Shown here: positions 6,723-16,459 of the stretch, in pieces
How positions within the stretch are numbered: position 1 is the stretch's first letter
Layout: each line of letters begins with the position of its first letter
Position numbers and translations under genes: made by a program
Notes under the pieces: generated by a model
Databases searched by the model: none
What the model was told of the DNA's origin: nothing
Seen by the model: only the letters and a program-made list of their open reading frames with translations
Virus record (IMG/VR): IMGVR_UViG_3300025062_000007
Coordinates: 1-22,073 of that record
Origin: a virus
Length of the DNA: 22,073 bases
Direction: 5' to 3' (one strand)

Positions 6723-7460
6723 CTAAAACATTGATTTATGTCTTATGATTATAGCAGCTCTACGTTGCCAAGCCTCACTATACATCTCTCTCAGCGACAT
6801 TTGATTGTACGGATGATGCAATACTAAGCAATCACTGATTACGTCCTCTGTGTGCTCAGATTTAAGCGTACCATCACCGATAAAGATAAGGGCGTGGTTC
6901 ACATGGGCAGTACGTCCTAATCGGCAAAGTATCAAGTCATGCTTTTGGATTGTATCAACTTCTACAAAACCCTCTTTCTTAAAGTTATCAAGATACAAGG
7001 GCTTGCTTTTGGCATCCGTCCACCATTCGTCTTTGCGCTCGTAGTCGTTAAGTGTTATGCCAAGCTCACGCTGATAGTAGTCTTTAACGAGTGTAAAACA
7101 ATCCATCAGCCCATGATGATACTCACGCCCTAGTAATGGTGCTTGATAACCATCGGGCTTGTGTAGCTCGACATTTTCACCGTCTGTTATGATCCAAGGC
7201 AAACCATGTAGATTCATTTGCACTCTGTCGGGCTGACTAGGTGCGGTCGTTCCGTCTGGGTGCGAATGGCAGTAGGCTAAAATCTTACCTTCTTTGGCAG
7301 CTCCTACGAGGTCGATAACATCAATCTCAAACTGGTTGTCATCAAGCGACACGTTGGTACATGGTATGTATTCTTTACCGACTATTACTCCGCATGACTC
7401 CTTAGGGTAACATTCGTTTGCATGGTCGTTAATAACTTTTTTTATCTTAGCTGTTAGCAT
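6723..7460 (-). CDS. K: Tail assembly protein K: JAMM peptidase plus NlpC/P60
   Basis: This 245-aa protein resembles lambda gpK and joins two hydrolase domains. The N-terminal JAB/MPN+ domain has E21, then H65-S-H67-P-D and D78 downstream of S75: a complete JAMM zinc site. The C-terminal NlpC/P60 domain has the nucleophile C121 in GLMDCFTLV and H189 in VNHALIFIG. In related tails the NlpC/P60 part is thought to open peptidoglycan during tail-tip passage, and the JAMM part to act in tip assembly. AAGGCGG precedes the ATG. Both active sites look intact. Confidence 0.93.
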   Translation of the reverse strand: MLTAKIKKVINDHANECYPKESCGVIVGKEYIPCTNVSLDDNQFEIDVIDLVGAAKEGKILAYCHSHPDGTTAPSQPDRVQMNLHGLPWIITDGENVELHKPDGYQAPLLGREYHHGLMDCFTLVKDYYQRELGITLNDYERKDEWWTDAKSKPLYLDNFKKEGFVEVDTIQKHDLILCRLGRTAHVNHALIFIGDGTLKSEHTEDVISDCLVLHHPYNQMSLREMYSEAWQRRAAIIIRHKSMF

Positions 7461-7481
7461 AGTACCGCCTTATTTTTGACA

Positions 7482-7507
7482 ATAAAAAACCACCCGTTAA
7501 GGTGGTT
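7482..7507 (-). terminator. Terminator upstream of gene K
   Basis: On the minus strand AACCACC pairs with GGTGGTT (7488-7507) around a TTAACG loop region, and is followed by TTTTTATT. It lies between the 69-aa gene and K. Confidence 0.75.
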
Positions 7508-7525
7508 CGTTTGTGTACTTTTTAT

Positions 7526-7735
7526 TTAGCTTACGTTATGCACAACATAGTGTTGACGATCAAACTCAATCAGTAGGTTTTTAACAAACTCGTAAGCACC
7601 TTTCTGCTCTATATCAAAACCACTATCAATAGCTATCTTATCCATCTGCTCTTTAGTCATAACACTTTCAATGTGACCGTCGTAATCATAACAGACGACA
7701 TTCATGTCATCGTCTTGTACTAATTTATTAGCCAT
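7526..7735 (-). CDS. Small acidic protein of unknown function
   Basis: This 69-aa protein is not recognised. It has an acidic N-terminal strand region (QDDDMNVVCYDYDGHIESVM) and two likely helices (TKEQMDKIAIDSG; AYEFVKNLLIEFDRQ). The ribosome binding site is poor (AGG only). It starts eight bases after the HNH gene stops and is followed by a strong terminator. The HNH gene and this ORF may therefore form one unit driven by the promoter at 8548-8576 and closed by the terminator at 7482. A link to the endonuclease is conjecture. Confidence 0.65.
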   Translation of the reverse strand: MANKLVQDDDMNVVCYDYDGHIESVMTKEQMDKIAIDSGFDIEQKGAYEFVKNLLIEFDRQHYVVHNVS

Positions 7736-7743
7736 AATAAAAC

Positions 7744-8511
7744 CTATTGATAGTTGTAATTCATATTGAGGGACAGCAATTCGCTGCCTGTATAACCATA
7801 CTTAATCCTATACCTAACAGCGCCCTCAGACATTTTTATCTCTTTAGCTATCTCAGAAACTGTTAGCATCCTACCGTCACCAACATTATGTCTAACATCC
7901 CTTTTTCGCACTGGAGCCGACATATCTTTATTGGTAACACCATCATGTCTATGCCTAAGTGTTGAGTCAGCCATACCCAGCTCTCTAGCTGCCTCAGCGA
8001 TGGATGAATAACTAATGCCGTTGATACATACCAGCTTGTTATTCCTCTTATTATTACCTTGCACTAAGGGTGTTGTCCATCTGCAATTATCAGGGCTATA
8101 ACCCTTATTGTTATCTATTCTGTCAATAGTTGCGCCCTTCGGTCTGTCGCCCATGTCTGATATAAAATTATTAATATCAAGCCACCTATCACAAACACCT
8201 ATACCCCTGCCACCATAATCAGGGTAATTCCTAGAGTCTTCCTTGTTGCACCTATGTAGAATCCCGCTCCATGTTTTATATAGCGGATGTGTGGACATTC
8301 CATGTATTGTCTTTCTTTGTCTGCCGTACTCCTTTTGGTAGCAGCCACACGATACCTGATAGCCTTTTGTTACGCTGCCCTTACCTGCGCTTTTTACCAC
8401 TCCACACTCACAAGAGAAAAACCAGTTGATGCGGTTAGTAACACTCCTATCCCTACTTATTGCAGTTAATCGACCAAATTTCTGACCAGTTATATCTAAT
8501 TCTTTTGCCAT
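7744..8511 (-). CDS. Free-standing HNH homing endonuclease
   Basis: This 255-aa protein starts with the FGRLTAISR motif and a zinc-ribbon-like segment (C34-x-C36 ... C55-x-C57). The HNH core follows at about 100-155: GGRGIGVCDRW, then TIDRIDNNKGYSPDNCRW with N142 and the trailing Q151xNN. The first catalytic position is Asp130, not the usual His, which is common in this subgroup. Residues 165-190 (SSIAEAARELGMADSTLRHR) and 213-241 (TVSEIAKEIKMSEGAVRYR) are two NUMOD-like helix-turn-helix units for DNA recognition. It is inserted between L and K, has its own promoter and a hairpin over its ribosome binding site (AAGG at 8519-8522). Confidence 0.9.
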   Translation of the reverse strand: MAKELDITGQKFGRLTAISRDRSVTNRINWFFSCECGVVKSAGKGSVTKGYQVSCGCYQKEYGRQRKTIHGMSTHPLYKTWSGILHRCNKEDSRNYPDYGGRGIGVCDRWLDINNFISDMGDRPKGATIDRIDNNKGYSPDNCRWTTPLVQGNNKRNNKLVCINGISYSSIAEAARELGMADSTLRHRHDGVTNKDMSAPVRKRDVRHNVGDGRMLTVSEIAKEIKMSEGAVRYRIKYGYTGSELLSLNMNYNYQ

Positions 8512-8514
8512 GAA

Positions 8515-8547
8515 AATACCTTATAAATACTTGTTTTATAAGGTATT
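8515..8547 (-). promoter_or_regulatory. 13-bp hairpin covering the HNH ribosome binding site
   Basis: Arms 8515-8527 and 8535-8547 are perfectly complementary, with a 7-base loop (8528-8534). The 3' arm on the minus strand holds the AAGG (8519-8522) that serves the ATG at 8511. Long transcripts from upstream tail genes would fold it and hide the site. A transcript starting near 8541 from the adjacent promoter would lack the first six bases of the 5' arm, including the GG partners of the CC in the 3' arm. Confidence 0.8.
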
Positions 8548-8576
8548 ATTATAACATTAATGTGTTAGTTTGACAA
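8548..8576 (-). promoter_or_regulatory. Sigma-70-type promoter for the HNH endonuclease
   Basis: On the minus strand TTGTCA (8571-8576), a 17-base spacer and a perfect TATAAT (8548-8553) form a near-consensus promoter. The -10 lies just past the stop of L and the -35 inside its last codons. The predicted start near 8541 is within the 5' arm of the hairpin. Confidence 0.8.
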
Positions 8577-9308
8577 CGCAGAGCTAGGAAAACCACCAAA
8601 CGGTAAAGAGTTATTGTCACCGAAGCGCAGCCTACAATCAGACAGTCTGCCACCACACTCGTCTTTAGAAACATCGCTTGTGGGCACGCCATCTTTAGTG
8701 AACATAGCGGTACCTATGTAACCACATTCGGATTGGCGATAGCGACCGTGCATACACCAGTGGCAGAACGATGTAATTTCACGGCTTGGTATTCGTGCGC
8801 CCTCGAAATCTATAGGATTTGAAAGCTCAAAGGTGACTTGTGAGGCATTCTCACTTACCTTTTGCTCAATATACCAAACTTGTTTTCTAAACTCGCTAGA
8901 GTTAGCTTGTGGGTTGCCGTCACTAAAATTATCAGCATCAAGGTATTGGGCTAATGTGTTGTACACAGTAATCCTGCTTCCGCCAAAATCATCGTGGCGT
9001 AAGCATAGGGCGCTAATTGCACCCTGTATGCCGTTTAAGTTATTAGCTAATGCGAGGCTTGGCATTGATGCCTTGCCATCGCCGCGCATCTCTAAGCCGT
9101 CTGTCTGTATCGGTATCGGGCTGTAGGTTTGACCTTGCCAAATAATGTCGCTTTTAACTGTCTTAGCATCAGGATTGATAATAGCCCAATCCTCAAACGA
9201 CACATGACCGTGCCACCGCATGATGCCTGCACCCAATTTAGTAGCGTCAAGCTCATACAGCGTCACAAGCCCCGTAACGCTGAGCTTTTGTAAGTCAGAT
9301 GAAAGCAT
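8565..9308 (-). CDS. L: Minor tail protein L
   Basis: This 247-aa protein resembles lambda gpL, a tail-tip component. The C-terminal domain has cysteines C182, C185, C195, C218 and C225 in FCHWCMHGRYRQSECGYIG and DECGGRLSDCRLRFG. Four such cysteines in lambda gpL bind an iron-sulfur cluster. The N-terminal part contains the conserved FRKQVWYIEQK and VTFELSNPIDFEG. The ATG follows the upstream TAA directly, with GGAGG as ribosome binding site (GGAGGTCTAAATG). Length is close to lambda gpL (232 aa). Confidence 0.93.
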   Translation of the reverse strand: MLSSDLQKLSVTGLVTLYELDATKLGAGIMRWHGHVSFEDWAIINPDAKTVKSDIIWQGQTYSPIPIQTDGLEMRGDGKASMPSLALANNLNGIQGAISALCLRHDDFGGSRITVYNTLAQYLDADNFSDGNPQANSSEFRKQVWYIEQKVSENASQVTFELSNPIDFEGARIPSREITSFCHWCMHGRYRQSECGYIGTAMFTKDGVPTSDVSKDECGGRLSDCRLRFGDNNSLPFGGFPSSALSN

Positions 9309-14241: not shown

Positions 14242-15078
14242 TTATCGACCGCCCCAAGTGCGAGTACGTGCATCTTGGCGTTCGATAAACGCTCTTGCTT
14301 GCTCTAATGCCGTTTGACTACCACCCTCACCTAATTTAACCAGCTTTCTTTGTTCGCCGAAAGCATCATAAATAAGACTGCTATGACCTTGAGCATTACC
14401 TATTGCGTTATATAGGTCACTTACCGCCTTGTGAGCCTCTCCTAGCGCCTTGCTTAGCTCAAAATGCTTTAGTATGCCAACACAGCGCCACATTTCGTTA
14501 TCCATTGCTTTGTCAATATCTACGCCGCCATGCTGAACCTGCATAAGTAAGCCATGTATGTAGTCGATTGCTTGTGGCACTTGTTCGACTGTCATCTCAT
14601 GAACACCCTCTAAGCCAAAGCGTTGATGCATCATTTTCCATACATCGGCATAAAAAGCGCCTGTTTTAGCACAAAAGGTATTTACTGCTGCACCTAATGG
14701 TTTTCTGTCAGCTATGGTTGAAAGGGTTTTTGTTTGTACTGGCTGACCAACCTCTTTGTCAAGAATATCGAGAACCCATTTACGAAATGCTTTGGCAATT
14801 TCGGTACGGGCAAACATTGCAAGTAAGTGACAACCTCGAAGTGAAAAAATTCGTACATCTCTTTTATTCCCTTCACCACTACCAAAACCTTTCACCACCA
14901 TGTTAATAGTGGCGGTCATGCTACCTGTAAACTCGTCTTTATTGCGATTGTACAAATTAGATATCTTATCAGTTCTGCTATAGCCAAGAGCTTTAGCTAT
15001 TTCGGTAGATGTTAACCATATTTGACCATTTTGCTGAACTGGGTTAAAATCAACTTCGTTAAAGGTTAAAGTATTCAT
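14242..15078 (-). CDS. Bro-N domain phage antirepressor
   Basis: This 278-aa protein has a BRO family N-terminal domain at about residues 1-112: LTFNEVDFNPVQQNGQIWLT, STEIAKALGYSRTDKISNLY and the closing RGCHLLAMFARTEIAKAFRKWVLDIL. Residues 120-200 (ADRKPLGAAVNTF, YADVWKMMHQRFG) resemble C-terminal domains of phage antirepressors. Such proteins bind and inactivate prophage repressors. It starts two bases after the Arc-like gene stops, with AAAGGA seven bases before the ATG, so the two form an operon. The partner is unknown. The neighbouring CI-like repressor or a main repressor elsewhere are both candidates. Confidence 0.85.
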   Translation of the reverse strand: MNTLTFNEVDFNPVQQNGQIWLTSTEIAKALGYSRTDKISNLYNRNKDEFTGSMTATINMVVKGFGSGEGNKRDVRIFSLRGCHLLAMFARTEIAKAFRKWVLDILDKEVGQPVQTKTLSTIADRKPLGAAVNTFCAKTGAFYADVWKMMHQRFGLEGVHEMTVEQVPQAIDYIHGLLMQVQHGGVDIDKAMDNEMWRCVGILKHFELSKALGEAHKAVSDLYNAIGNAQGHSSLIYDAFGEQRKLVKLGEGGSQTALEQARAFIERQDARTRTWGGR

Positions 15079-15079
15079 A

Positions 15080-15289
15080 TTAGTTTCCTTTGATTAGTGA
15101 GCGAGCAGACAATTCATCTTGGCGGGTGATGTCTGCTTTTTTATTGCCTTGGGTTTCTTCTAGCAGTCCTTCACTGTCTAAAGCTAACTTTAAATAGTAG
15201 ATAAACTGTCTGCGAATAGACCTATCTTCTTGCTTGGCTCTTCTTTTAACGATATCCGCTAAATCATCGTCATAAATACACGTATACAT
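15080..15289 (-). CDS. Arc-like ribbon-helix-helix repressor
   Basis: This 69-aa protein starts with a short strand (MYTCIYD) and two helices (DDLADIVKRRAKQEDRS; IRRQFIYYLKLALDSEG), the layout of Arc/MetJ DNA-binding dimers. The ribosome binding site is AAGGA eight bases before the ATG. It comes first in an operon with the Bro-N antirepressor. In P22 the Arc protein represses ant transcription. The same negative control is likely here, acting on palindromes in the intergenic space to the right. The C-terminal 25 residues are extra compared with Arc (53 aa). Confidence 0.75.
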   Translation of the reverse strand: MYTCIYDDDLADIVKRRAKQEDRSIRRQFIYYLKLALDSEGLLEETQGNKKADITRQDELSARSLIKGN

Positions 15290-15299
15290 AGTATAATTC

Positions 15300-15370
15300 C
15301 TTATATTAAGTGTTTAATTCAATCAACTTATTAAGTTTAATACGTTTTAATAAGTTAAAAGTATATTATA
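15300..15370. promoter_or_regulatory. Divergent promoter/operator region with palindromes
   Basis: This AT-rich 111-base gap separates divergent arc-like and cI-like genes. It holds a perfect 13-base palindrome AACTTATTAAGTT (15325-15337). A 10-bp inverted repeat (15325-15334 with 15347-15356) also spans it, and ATTAAGT-TTAAT motifs recur at 15305-15318 and 15330-15341. These are operator candidates for the repressor, the Arc-like protein or both. TATATT/TATTAT at 15362-15369 could be a -10 for the plus-strand gene. No clear -35 is visible in either direction. Confidence 0.6.
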
Positions 15371-15400
15371 CGACTAAAATAACAAGGTCAAGGGTTTTTT

Positions 15401-15994
15401 ATGATTGATAATTTCCCAGCGCGTCTTAGATACTTCCGCTCAAAGCAAAACTTATCTCAAACTGATTTATCTGACTTGGTTGGTATATCCCAGAAGCAGA
15501 TATCGGATTACGAGGTAGGTAACAGCATGCCGCGGCAATCCAACCTGTTAAAGCTTATTGAGGCTCTTAAGATTACCAAGCAAGAGTTTATGACCACCCC
15601 TATAGATACAACAAATGATCTGGTATCTGACTTACAGTTTTTTGAATTCCATAATGAAGCTTCCAACCTTAAAATATCTCTACCCACCACTATTGCTCAA
15701 GACCTTCCTTTAGATAAAGAAAAAATTATCCCAACTAGAATAAATGGGCAGTCAATGCTGCCACTATTAAATAATGGTGATATCGCTCTAATAGATACAA
15801 ACCAAAATCAACCACAAGATGGTGAGGTTTTCGCTATCAGCTTTTTTAACGAAGAGTTAGTCGCGAGAGTTTTTAGAAATATAGATGGATCGATTATACT
15901 CTCTAGGGATAACGAGAGTTACCCACCAAAAACAGTAAGCCCTGCTGACATCGAAATAATAGGCAAGGTGGTTTATCGTATGGGTAGCATATAA
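15401..15994 (+). CDS. CI-like repressor, XRE HTH plus S24-type domain
   Basis: This 197-aa protein is the only convincing plus-strand phage gene here. Residues 6-62 are an XRE helix-turn-helix (LSQTDLSDLVGISQKQISDY). Residues 110-195 are a LexA/CI S24 domain with Ser118 in NGQSMLPLLNNGD. The segment aligning with the catalytic lysine (VKRL in LexA) reads LVARVFR, so Ala155 stands at that place. No Ala-Gly or Cys-Gly dipeptide is seen in the linker. It probably binds DNA and dimerises but cannot self-cleave. AAGGG lies six bases before the ATG. It faces away from the Arc-like/antirepressor operon. Confidence 0.88.
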   Translation: MIDNFPARLRYFRSKQNLSQTDLSDLVGISQKQISDYEVGNSMPRQSNLLKLIEALKITKQEFMTTPIDTTNDLVSDLQFFEFHNEASNLKISLPTTIAQDLPLDKEKIIPTRINGQSMLPLLNNGDIALIDTNQNQPQDGEVFAISFFNEELVARVFRNIDGSIILSRDNESYPPKTVSPADIEIIGKVVYRMGSI

Positions 15995-16142
15995 CCCACT
16001 TATCATCTCACTTTTCCTTGCCCCCCATATTGAGGGTCAAGGGATAAGTTATTGATTTTAAGGTATATATTAATATTACTCTGCATATTTGCAGACTGCA
16101 TAATAGTTGGTTCATTATATTTGCAGAACAGTTATTCCAAAG

Positions 16143-16172
16143 AAAAACCCACCGATTAAATGGTGGGTTTTT
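16143..16172. terminator. Bidirectional terminator between repressor and lipoprotein genes
   Basis: AAAAACCCACC-GATTAAAT-GGTGGGTTTTT is perfect on both strands. It serves the convergent repressor gene (plus) and lipoprotein gene (minus). Confidence 0.85.
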
Positions 16173-16186
16173 CAATTCTGCTATTA

Positions 16187-16459
16187 TTATTTATCTATCC
16201 CTGCGGCTTTACAGTCTGTCTTTTCTATCGCTTTCCATTCGTTGTACTTGGCTTCATCTTGAGATTGCAGATAGGCGGCGCTCACCATTCCTGCTTGTAC
16301 GCAAGTTTGTATAACGTCACCTTGTTTTTTAGCTATATCGTACTGAGCAACCATATCATCGGCTACTTTATTATGAATCTTGTCCATCTGCATATCTGTT
16401 GCGGCATCACAGCCAACTAAAGATAAGACAAACAATGTTCCCACTAATATATTTTTCAT
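16187..16459 (-). CDS. Small lipoprotein, probable lysogenic conversion gene
   Basis: This 90-aa precursor has a lysine-led signal peptide and the lipobox LVGC, with Cys17 as the lipidated residue. Asp18 follows at +2, a known inner-membrane retention signal that avoids Lol export. The mature part is helical with two cysteines (C52 region and C83 region). A TATAAT at 16480-16485 may be part of its own promoter. It lies between tail genes and the repressor, followed by the bidirectional terminator, so expression from the prophage is plausible. Superinfection exclusion or envelope modification is a guess from position and location. Confidence 0.7.
   Translation of the reverse strand: MKNILVGTLFVLSLVGCDAATDMQMDKIHNKVADDMVAQYDIAKKQGDVIQTCVQAGMVSAAYLQSQDEAKYNEWKAIEKTDCKAAGIDK

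Follow-up and report, generated by a model that had tools for sequence, protein, structure and literature searches.

An HNH cassette between tail genes L and K

The window is the whole stretch of DNA analyzed here, 22,073 nucleotides long. It is a 22-kb viral contig (IMG/VR IMGVR_UViG_3300025062_000007) whose minus strand carries a late operon of the lambda type. Along that strand, the gene order is tape measure, M-like, tail-fibre-like, L, HNH, a 69-aa ORF, K, I-like, and J-like. The following features lie at and around the HNH gene, all on the minus strand.

8565..9308, minus strand: host gene for minor tail protein L (PF05100)
7461..8580, minus strand: whole cassette, ends approximate, from comparison with empty sites, in which only a few nucleotides separate L from K
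8571..8576, minus strand: -35 hexamer TTGTCA, from the sequence; overlaps the last codons of L and belongs to the insert according to the empty-site comparison
8548..8553, minus strand: -10 hexamer TATAAT with a TGn extension and a 17-nt spacer, from the sequence
8539..8542, minus strand: predicted transcription start zone within the hairpin 5' arm, from the -10 position and the Shine-Dalgarno (SD) opening profile
8535..8547, minus strand: hairpin 5' arm AATACCTTATAAA, from sequence and folding
8528..8534, minus strand: hairpin loop ACAAGTA, from sequence and folding
8515..8527, minus strand: hairpin 3' arm TTTATAAGGTATT with the SD inside, from sequence and folding
8519..8522, minus strand: SD sequence AAGG, 7 nt 5' of the ATG, from the sequence
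8509..8511, minus strand: HNH start codon ATG, from the sequence
7744..8511, minus strand: HNH homing endonuclease, 255 aa (Pfam PF20987; PHROG 374, HNH endonuclease, E 1e-61)
7526..7735, minus strand: acidic 69-aa ORF, part of the insert, from the sequence
7487..7508, minus strand: intrinsic terminator immediately ahead of K, with stem-loop GAACCACCTTAACGGGTGGTTT and a T-run after it, from the sequence
6723..7460, minus strand: host gene for tail assembly protein K (JAB and NlpC/P60 domain matches)

In four relatives, whose L proteins are 73-82% identical to that of the window, the L stop codon lies only a few nucleotides before the K start. The adjacency of L and K in these insert-free relatives indicates that the promoter, hairpin, HNH gene, 69-aa ORF, and terminator make up one cassette of ~1.1 kb. 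The insert (8580 to 7461) also provides the present ribosome site of K.

The HNH gene has the attributes of a modular HNH homing endonuclease: its product combines the HNH family match with an I-TevI-type DNA-binding region, and it occupies an insertion that is missing from otherwise collinear relatives, at a site shared with homologues. The protein also has a C-terminal HTH-like region; a PDB search with the family profile gave no convincing relative. The 69-aa ORF, for which a 67-aa stretch was used as the query, had no match in Pfam, PHROG, or phage searches, and it is possible that it encodes a partner of the endonuclease. A gene inserted together with an apparent promoter and terminator of its own resembles a moron. 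The terminator before K suggests such a moron-type unit, which would be compatible with constant translation or with expression in the lysogen.

Three further HNH genes were found between L and K, in Pseudomonas phage phiAH14a and at loci L050 and L388 (the trio at this junction is also listed as L050, L370, and L388). The phiAH14a and L050 proteins are 39% identical. An intrinsic terminator lies between HNH and K in each of the three, and a terminator before K is thus common to four L/K inserts, that of the window included. As read from the sequences, the shared site and terminators support site-specific homing into the L/K junction and a moron-like closed unit.

Elsewhere in the tail operon, between the tape measure and tail genes, lies an immunity-like block (14242-16459) consisting of a Bro-N antirepressor and a small ORF on the minus strand, an S24 repressor of the CI type on the plus strand, and a small lipoprotein-like ORF. 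The location of a repressor within a tail operon is unusual. A perfect 10-bp palindrome (AACTTATTAA..TTAATAAGTT, 15325-15356) upstream of the repressor gene is a probable operator, and a perfect 12-bp hairpin after the gene (16142-16173), with A/T runs on both sides, is likely a bidirectional terminator.

Promoter and hairpin upstream of the HNH gene

A first-pass annotation of this DNA had placed a TTGTCA-17-TATAAT promoter at 8576-8548 of the minus strand, followed by a perfect 13-bp hairpin at 8547-8515 with the AAGG of the HNH gene in its 3' arm. Both elements were found as described, and both are far beyond chance. Of all sigma-70-type matches in the 22-kb stretch, this promoter ranks first. 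With a TG one base 5' of TATAAT, which makes an extended -10, it scores 11/12 + TGn, a value reached by no other site in the stretch and matched in none of 3000 leader shuffles and none of 10 whole-stretch shuffles.

The -10 hexamer directly abuts the hairpin (8548 / 8547). The inverted repeat, AATACCTTATAAA / ACAAGTA / TTTATAAGGTATT, forms 13 perfect pairs around a 7-nt loop and exceeds in length every other perfect hairpin of the stretch; the longest arm in 20 shuffled stretches was 11 bp. The 43-nt hairpin region folds at -11.2 kcal/mol (z -4.25), equalled by 0 of 200 shuffles. The hairpin of locus L003 is identical and offers no independent variant. The same arms occur in only one other contig, L049, where they precede a separate strong SD and lack HNH context. 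We took this copy to be a coincidence and did not treat the hairpin as a repeated element.

Folding of long and short leaders, which the first-pass annotation had proposed as a check, separated them clearly. The computed cost of opening the AAGG was about 10-13 kcal/mol when the RNA began at 8546 or farther upstream, as opposed to about 0.7-1.4 kcal/mol for starts at 8541-8535. By individual start, the cost was 10.7 kcal/mol at 8547, 4.1 at 8542, 1.4 at 8541, and 0.7 at 8539. The start predicted from the -10 is 8541-8539, where the steep fall of this curve ends, in agreement with the earlier placement of the start at about 8541 within the 5' arm. The computed folds thus pair the SD in a stable stem on read-through RNA, and initiation at the promoter is predicted from sequence and fold to remove the 5' arm, as in the I-TevI/MobE type of regulation. 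Since 17 nt separate the end of the L stop codon from the stem, ribosomes terminating translation of L would not be expected to open it.

Recurrence of the layout among HNH relatives

For 292 distinct HNH relatives, found on viral and cellular contigs, we compared the DNA upstream of the gene with that of other genes on the same contigs. The joint layout was defined as a stem that covers the SD at -8 kcal/mol or below, together with a -10 that places the start in the 5' arm or loop. In the first set, whose data shaped this criterion, the layout was present at 5 of 166 HNH genes versus 0 of 898 controls; out of sample, with the criterion fixed, it was present at 4 of 126 new loci. SD-covering stems alone were not clearly enriched (15/166 HNH relatives versus 57/898 controls), and the hairpin alone was rejected as a signature of the family, there being no clear enrichment over all HNH relatives.

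Among genes with a near promoter, the gating gain was at least 6 kcal/mol in 7 of 29 HNH genes and in 0 of 77 controls (p = 6e-5). Where a co-directional gene ended 45-80 nt upstream, a range picked after the cases were seen, a stem with a -10 at or in it preceded 8 of 32 HNH genes and 0 of 100 controls (p = 6e-6). With any co-directional upstream gene, the stem and -10 layout occurred at 8/166 HNH genes versus 1/803 controls (p = 5e-6). SD-covering stems numbered 10 of 32 in the 45-80-nt set, against 1.2 expected from leader shuffles that kept the SD (maximum 6 in 200). A pre-stated replication on a small set yielded one case in five (L441) versus 0 in 100 (p = 0.048); the replication also turned up L453, with the same layout and a longer loop.

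Overall, the roughly 290 HNH relatives yielded some six distinct lineages in which promoter and stem overlap, in most cases immediately downstream of virion genes. The clean cases (L003 and the window; L017, L019, and L290; L308; L240 and L453; L287; L215; L441) are unrelated in stem sequence and lie behind different genes. Not counted as clean were L138, L241, L166 (without a co-directional neighbor), and L264 (ambiguous start). On the HNH tree, nine positive tips, with L264 counted, require six changes. The upstream gene encodes the major head protein in several cases (L019 and L240, and, by inspection, L441 and L453), as it does at the ambiguous L264 and the promoterless L357. At the latter locus, a 15-bp GC-rich stem (1745-1790) reaches the SD of the HNH gene, which follows the major head gene, and no internal promoter is evident. 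The L269 HNH leader (gene start 1992) has competing hairpins at the SD, GGGGAGTG/CACTCCTC versus CCACAA/TTGTGG, which lie downstream of a TATAAT in an attenuator-like arrangement.

Members of the L017 family preserve the stem through two double compensatory changes, A-U to U-A and A-U to G-C, and a U-G pair is constant in all six of them. Together these features favor RNA over a DNA palindrome as the functional form. In the L291-L293 branch of this family, compensatory changes preserve the stem even as the -10 departs from consensus, so the stem is perhaps the more constrained part. Short-leader opening values for L293 were disregarded because the -10 string was not found there.

The nearest relatives tell a different story. 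The HNH inserts of phiAH14a, L050, and L388 share with the window homology, insertion site, and the terminator before K, but differ in having leaders of roughly 100 nt in which no -10 overlaps a stem; their SDs are moderately structured, with opening costs of about 3-6 kcal/mol. Conservation of hairpin and promoter beside close homologues, another check proposed in the first-pass annotation, is therefore not borne out, and the promoter-hairpin element appears to have re-evolved in other lineages and not to be conserved by descent. When 392 genomes taken from the order to which the Stutzerimonas locus L131 belongs were screened for closer homologues, only two matches turned up, neither of them close.

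Probable gated expression, its alternatives, and known systems

We consider it probable that the cassette uses T4-style gating, with the SD hidden on late RNA and freed on RNA from the cassette's own sigma-70-type promoter. In this scheme, a free-standing HNH homing endonuclease cassette would sit between L and K, and late RNA entering from L would carry the full hairpin with the SD buried, leaving the highly transcribed tail operon to yield little endonuclease. RNA from the cassette promoter would start inside the 5' arm and, being unable to form the stem, would expose the SD for translation. Cassette transcription would halt at the terminator before K, and late RNA would continue past it to K, I, and J, presumably through antitermination of the Q type known from lambda. 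Expressed at a basal level in the lysogen, or soon after infection, the endonuclease may serve to cut relatives that lack it. On sequence grounds, such a design is well supported by the folds of the long and short RNAs, by the location of promoter and hairpin on the insert, and by recurrence in unrelated HNH cassettes; against it stands the lack of conservation in the nearest homologues.

Alternatively, the hairpin palindrome could work at the DNA level, as an operator of the cassette promoter to which the endonuclease binds, as I-TevI does in autorepression, or else the CI-type repressor of the prophage, with the RNA stem incidental. It lies exactly at the predicted +1 with 20 bp between arm centers, the HNH protein has HTH-like regions, and CTTAT..ATAAG half-sites are common to the HNH hairpin and the 10-bp palindrome upstream of the repressor gene. 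However, the half-sites are unequally spaced (13 versus 18 nt), the leader's similarity to the repressor intergenic region is not significant (p = 0.07), its similarity to empty sites has p = 0.06-0.63, and the stems of related cassettes cover the SD and use G-U pairs that break DNA symmetry. We regard this alternative as unlikely. The idea that the leader is a copy of the homing site was not supported.

Even lower is the likelihood we assign to RNA gating and transcriptional autorepression acting at one site. Although T4 I-TevI does both (PMC2988022) and the anatomy of the cassette leader permits both, the leader contains no homing-site-like sequence. An ordinary moron, whose hairpin only shields the 5' end or has arisen by chance as an AT-rich repeat without translational effect, would account for the promoter and terminator around the inserted gene, a classic moron layout, and for the terminator common to the four L/K inserts. 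This reading is improbable given a stem far beyond chance and SD coverage repeated in unrelated cassettes; a protective stem would, moreover, be destroyed by a start inside its 5' arm.

Returning to gating, we lean toward a broader view, in which free-standing HNH cassettes of many siphophages and prophages that are not related to one another arrived time and again at one arrangement, a host-type promoter inside a hairpin that hides the SD, and in which it was selected because these cassettes insert next to the most heavily transcribed virion genes (major capsid, tail). If true, this would be a general convergent rule for homing-gene regulation outside T4-like phages: the T4-like trick may be a convergent solution, built with ordinary host promoters, that suits selfish endonucleases on arrival in strongly expressed structural operons. 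Because the element is simple and testable and has several independent natural examples, it makes it possible to ask why late transcripts must not express such genes and at what time the genes would be active in temperate phages.

An RBS-hiding hairpin with a nearby T4-type promoter has been described for I-TevI, I-TevII, I-TevIII, segB, and Aeh1 mobE (PMC2988022), in agreement with PMC3014915; the former confirms the first-pass attribution of the design to I-TevI and related endonucleases. The same annotation knew of no HNH case in a lambda-type tail operon. Aeromonas phage Aeh1 mobE is an HNH precedent for the arrangement (PMC2988022), whereas what seems to be new is only the presence of a sigma-70-type promoter within structural operons of the lambda type. 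A search of the open-access literature found no report of this design for lambda-type operons or prophages.

T4 I-TevI, I-TevII, I-TevIII, and SegB share with the cassette an RBS hidden on long RNA and a promoter at the stem that yields a short RNA without the 5' arm. They differ in their late or middle promoters, in being mostly GIY-YIG enzymes, and in the group I introns that house the intron endonucleases; here, a sigma-70-type promoter precedes a free-standing HNH gene in a lambda-type tail operon. Since I-TevI/MobE-type regulation involves a phage late-type promoter and late expression, the sigma-70-type consensus means that the cassette would work like the T4 late-promoter type without being a member of it. 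Aeh1 mobE likewise combines a free-standing HNH endonuclease, an RBS-hiding hairpin, and a nearby promoter, but it is inserted in the nrdA gene of a T-even-like phage and has a late promoter, and no terminator-closed unit is described for it in PMC2988022. Lambdoid morons, in turn, are inserted genes between structural genes with their own sigma-70-type promoter and intrinsic terminator, to which the cassette adds a homing endonuclease and a translation-gating hairpin. Relative to a design previously known mainly from T4-like phages, the sigma-70-type promoter, the lambda-type structural operon setting, and the convergent recurrence look new.
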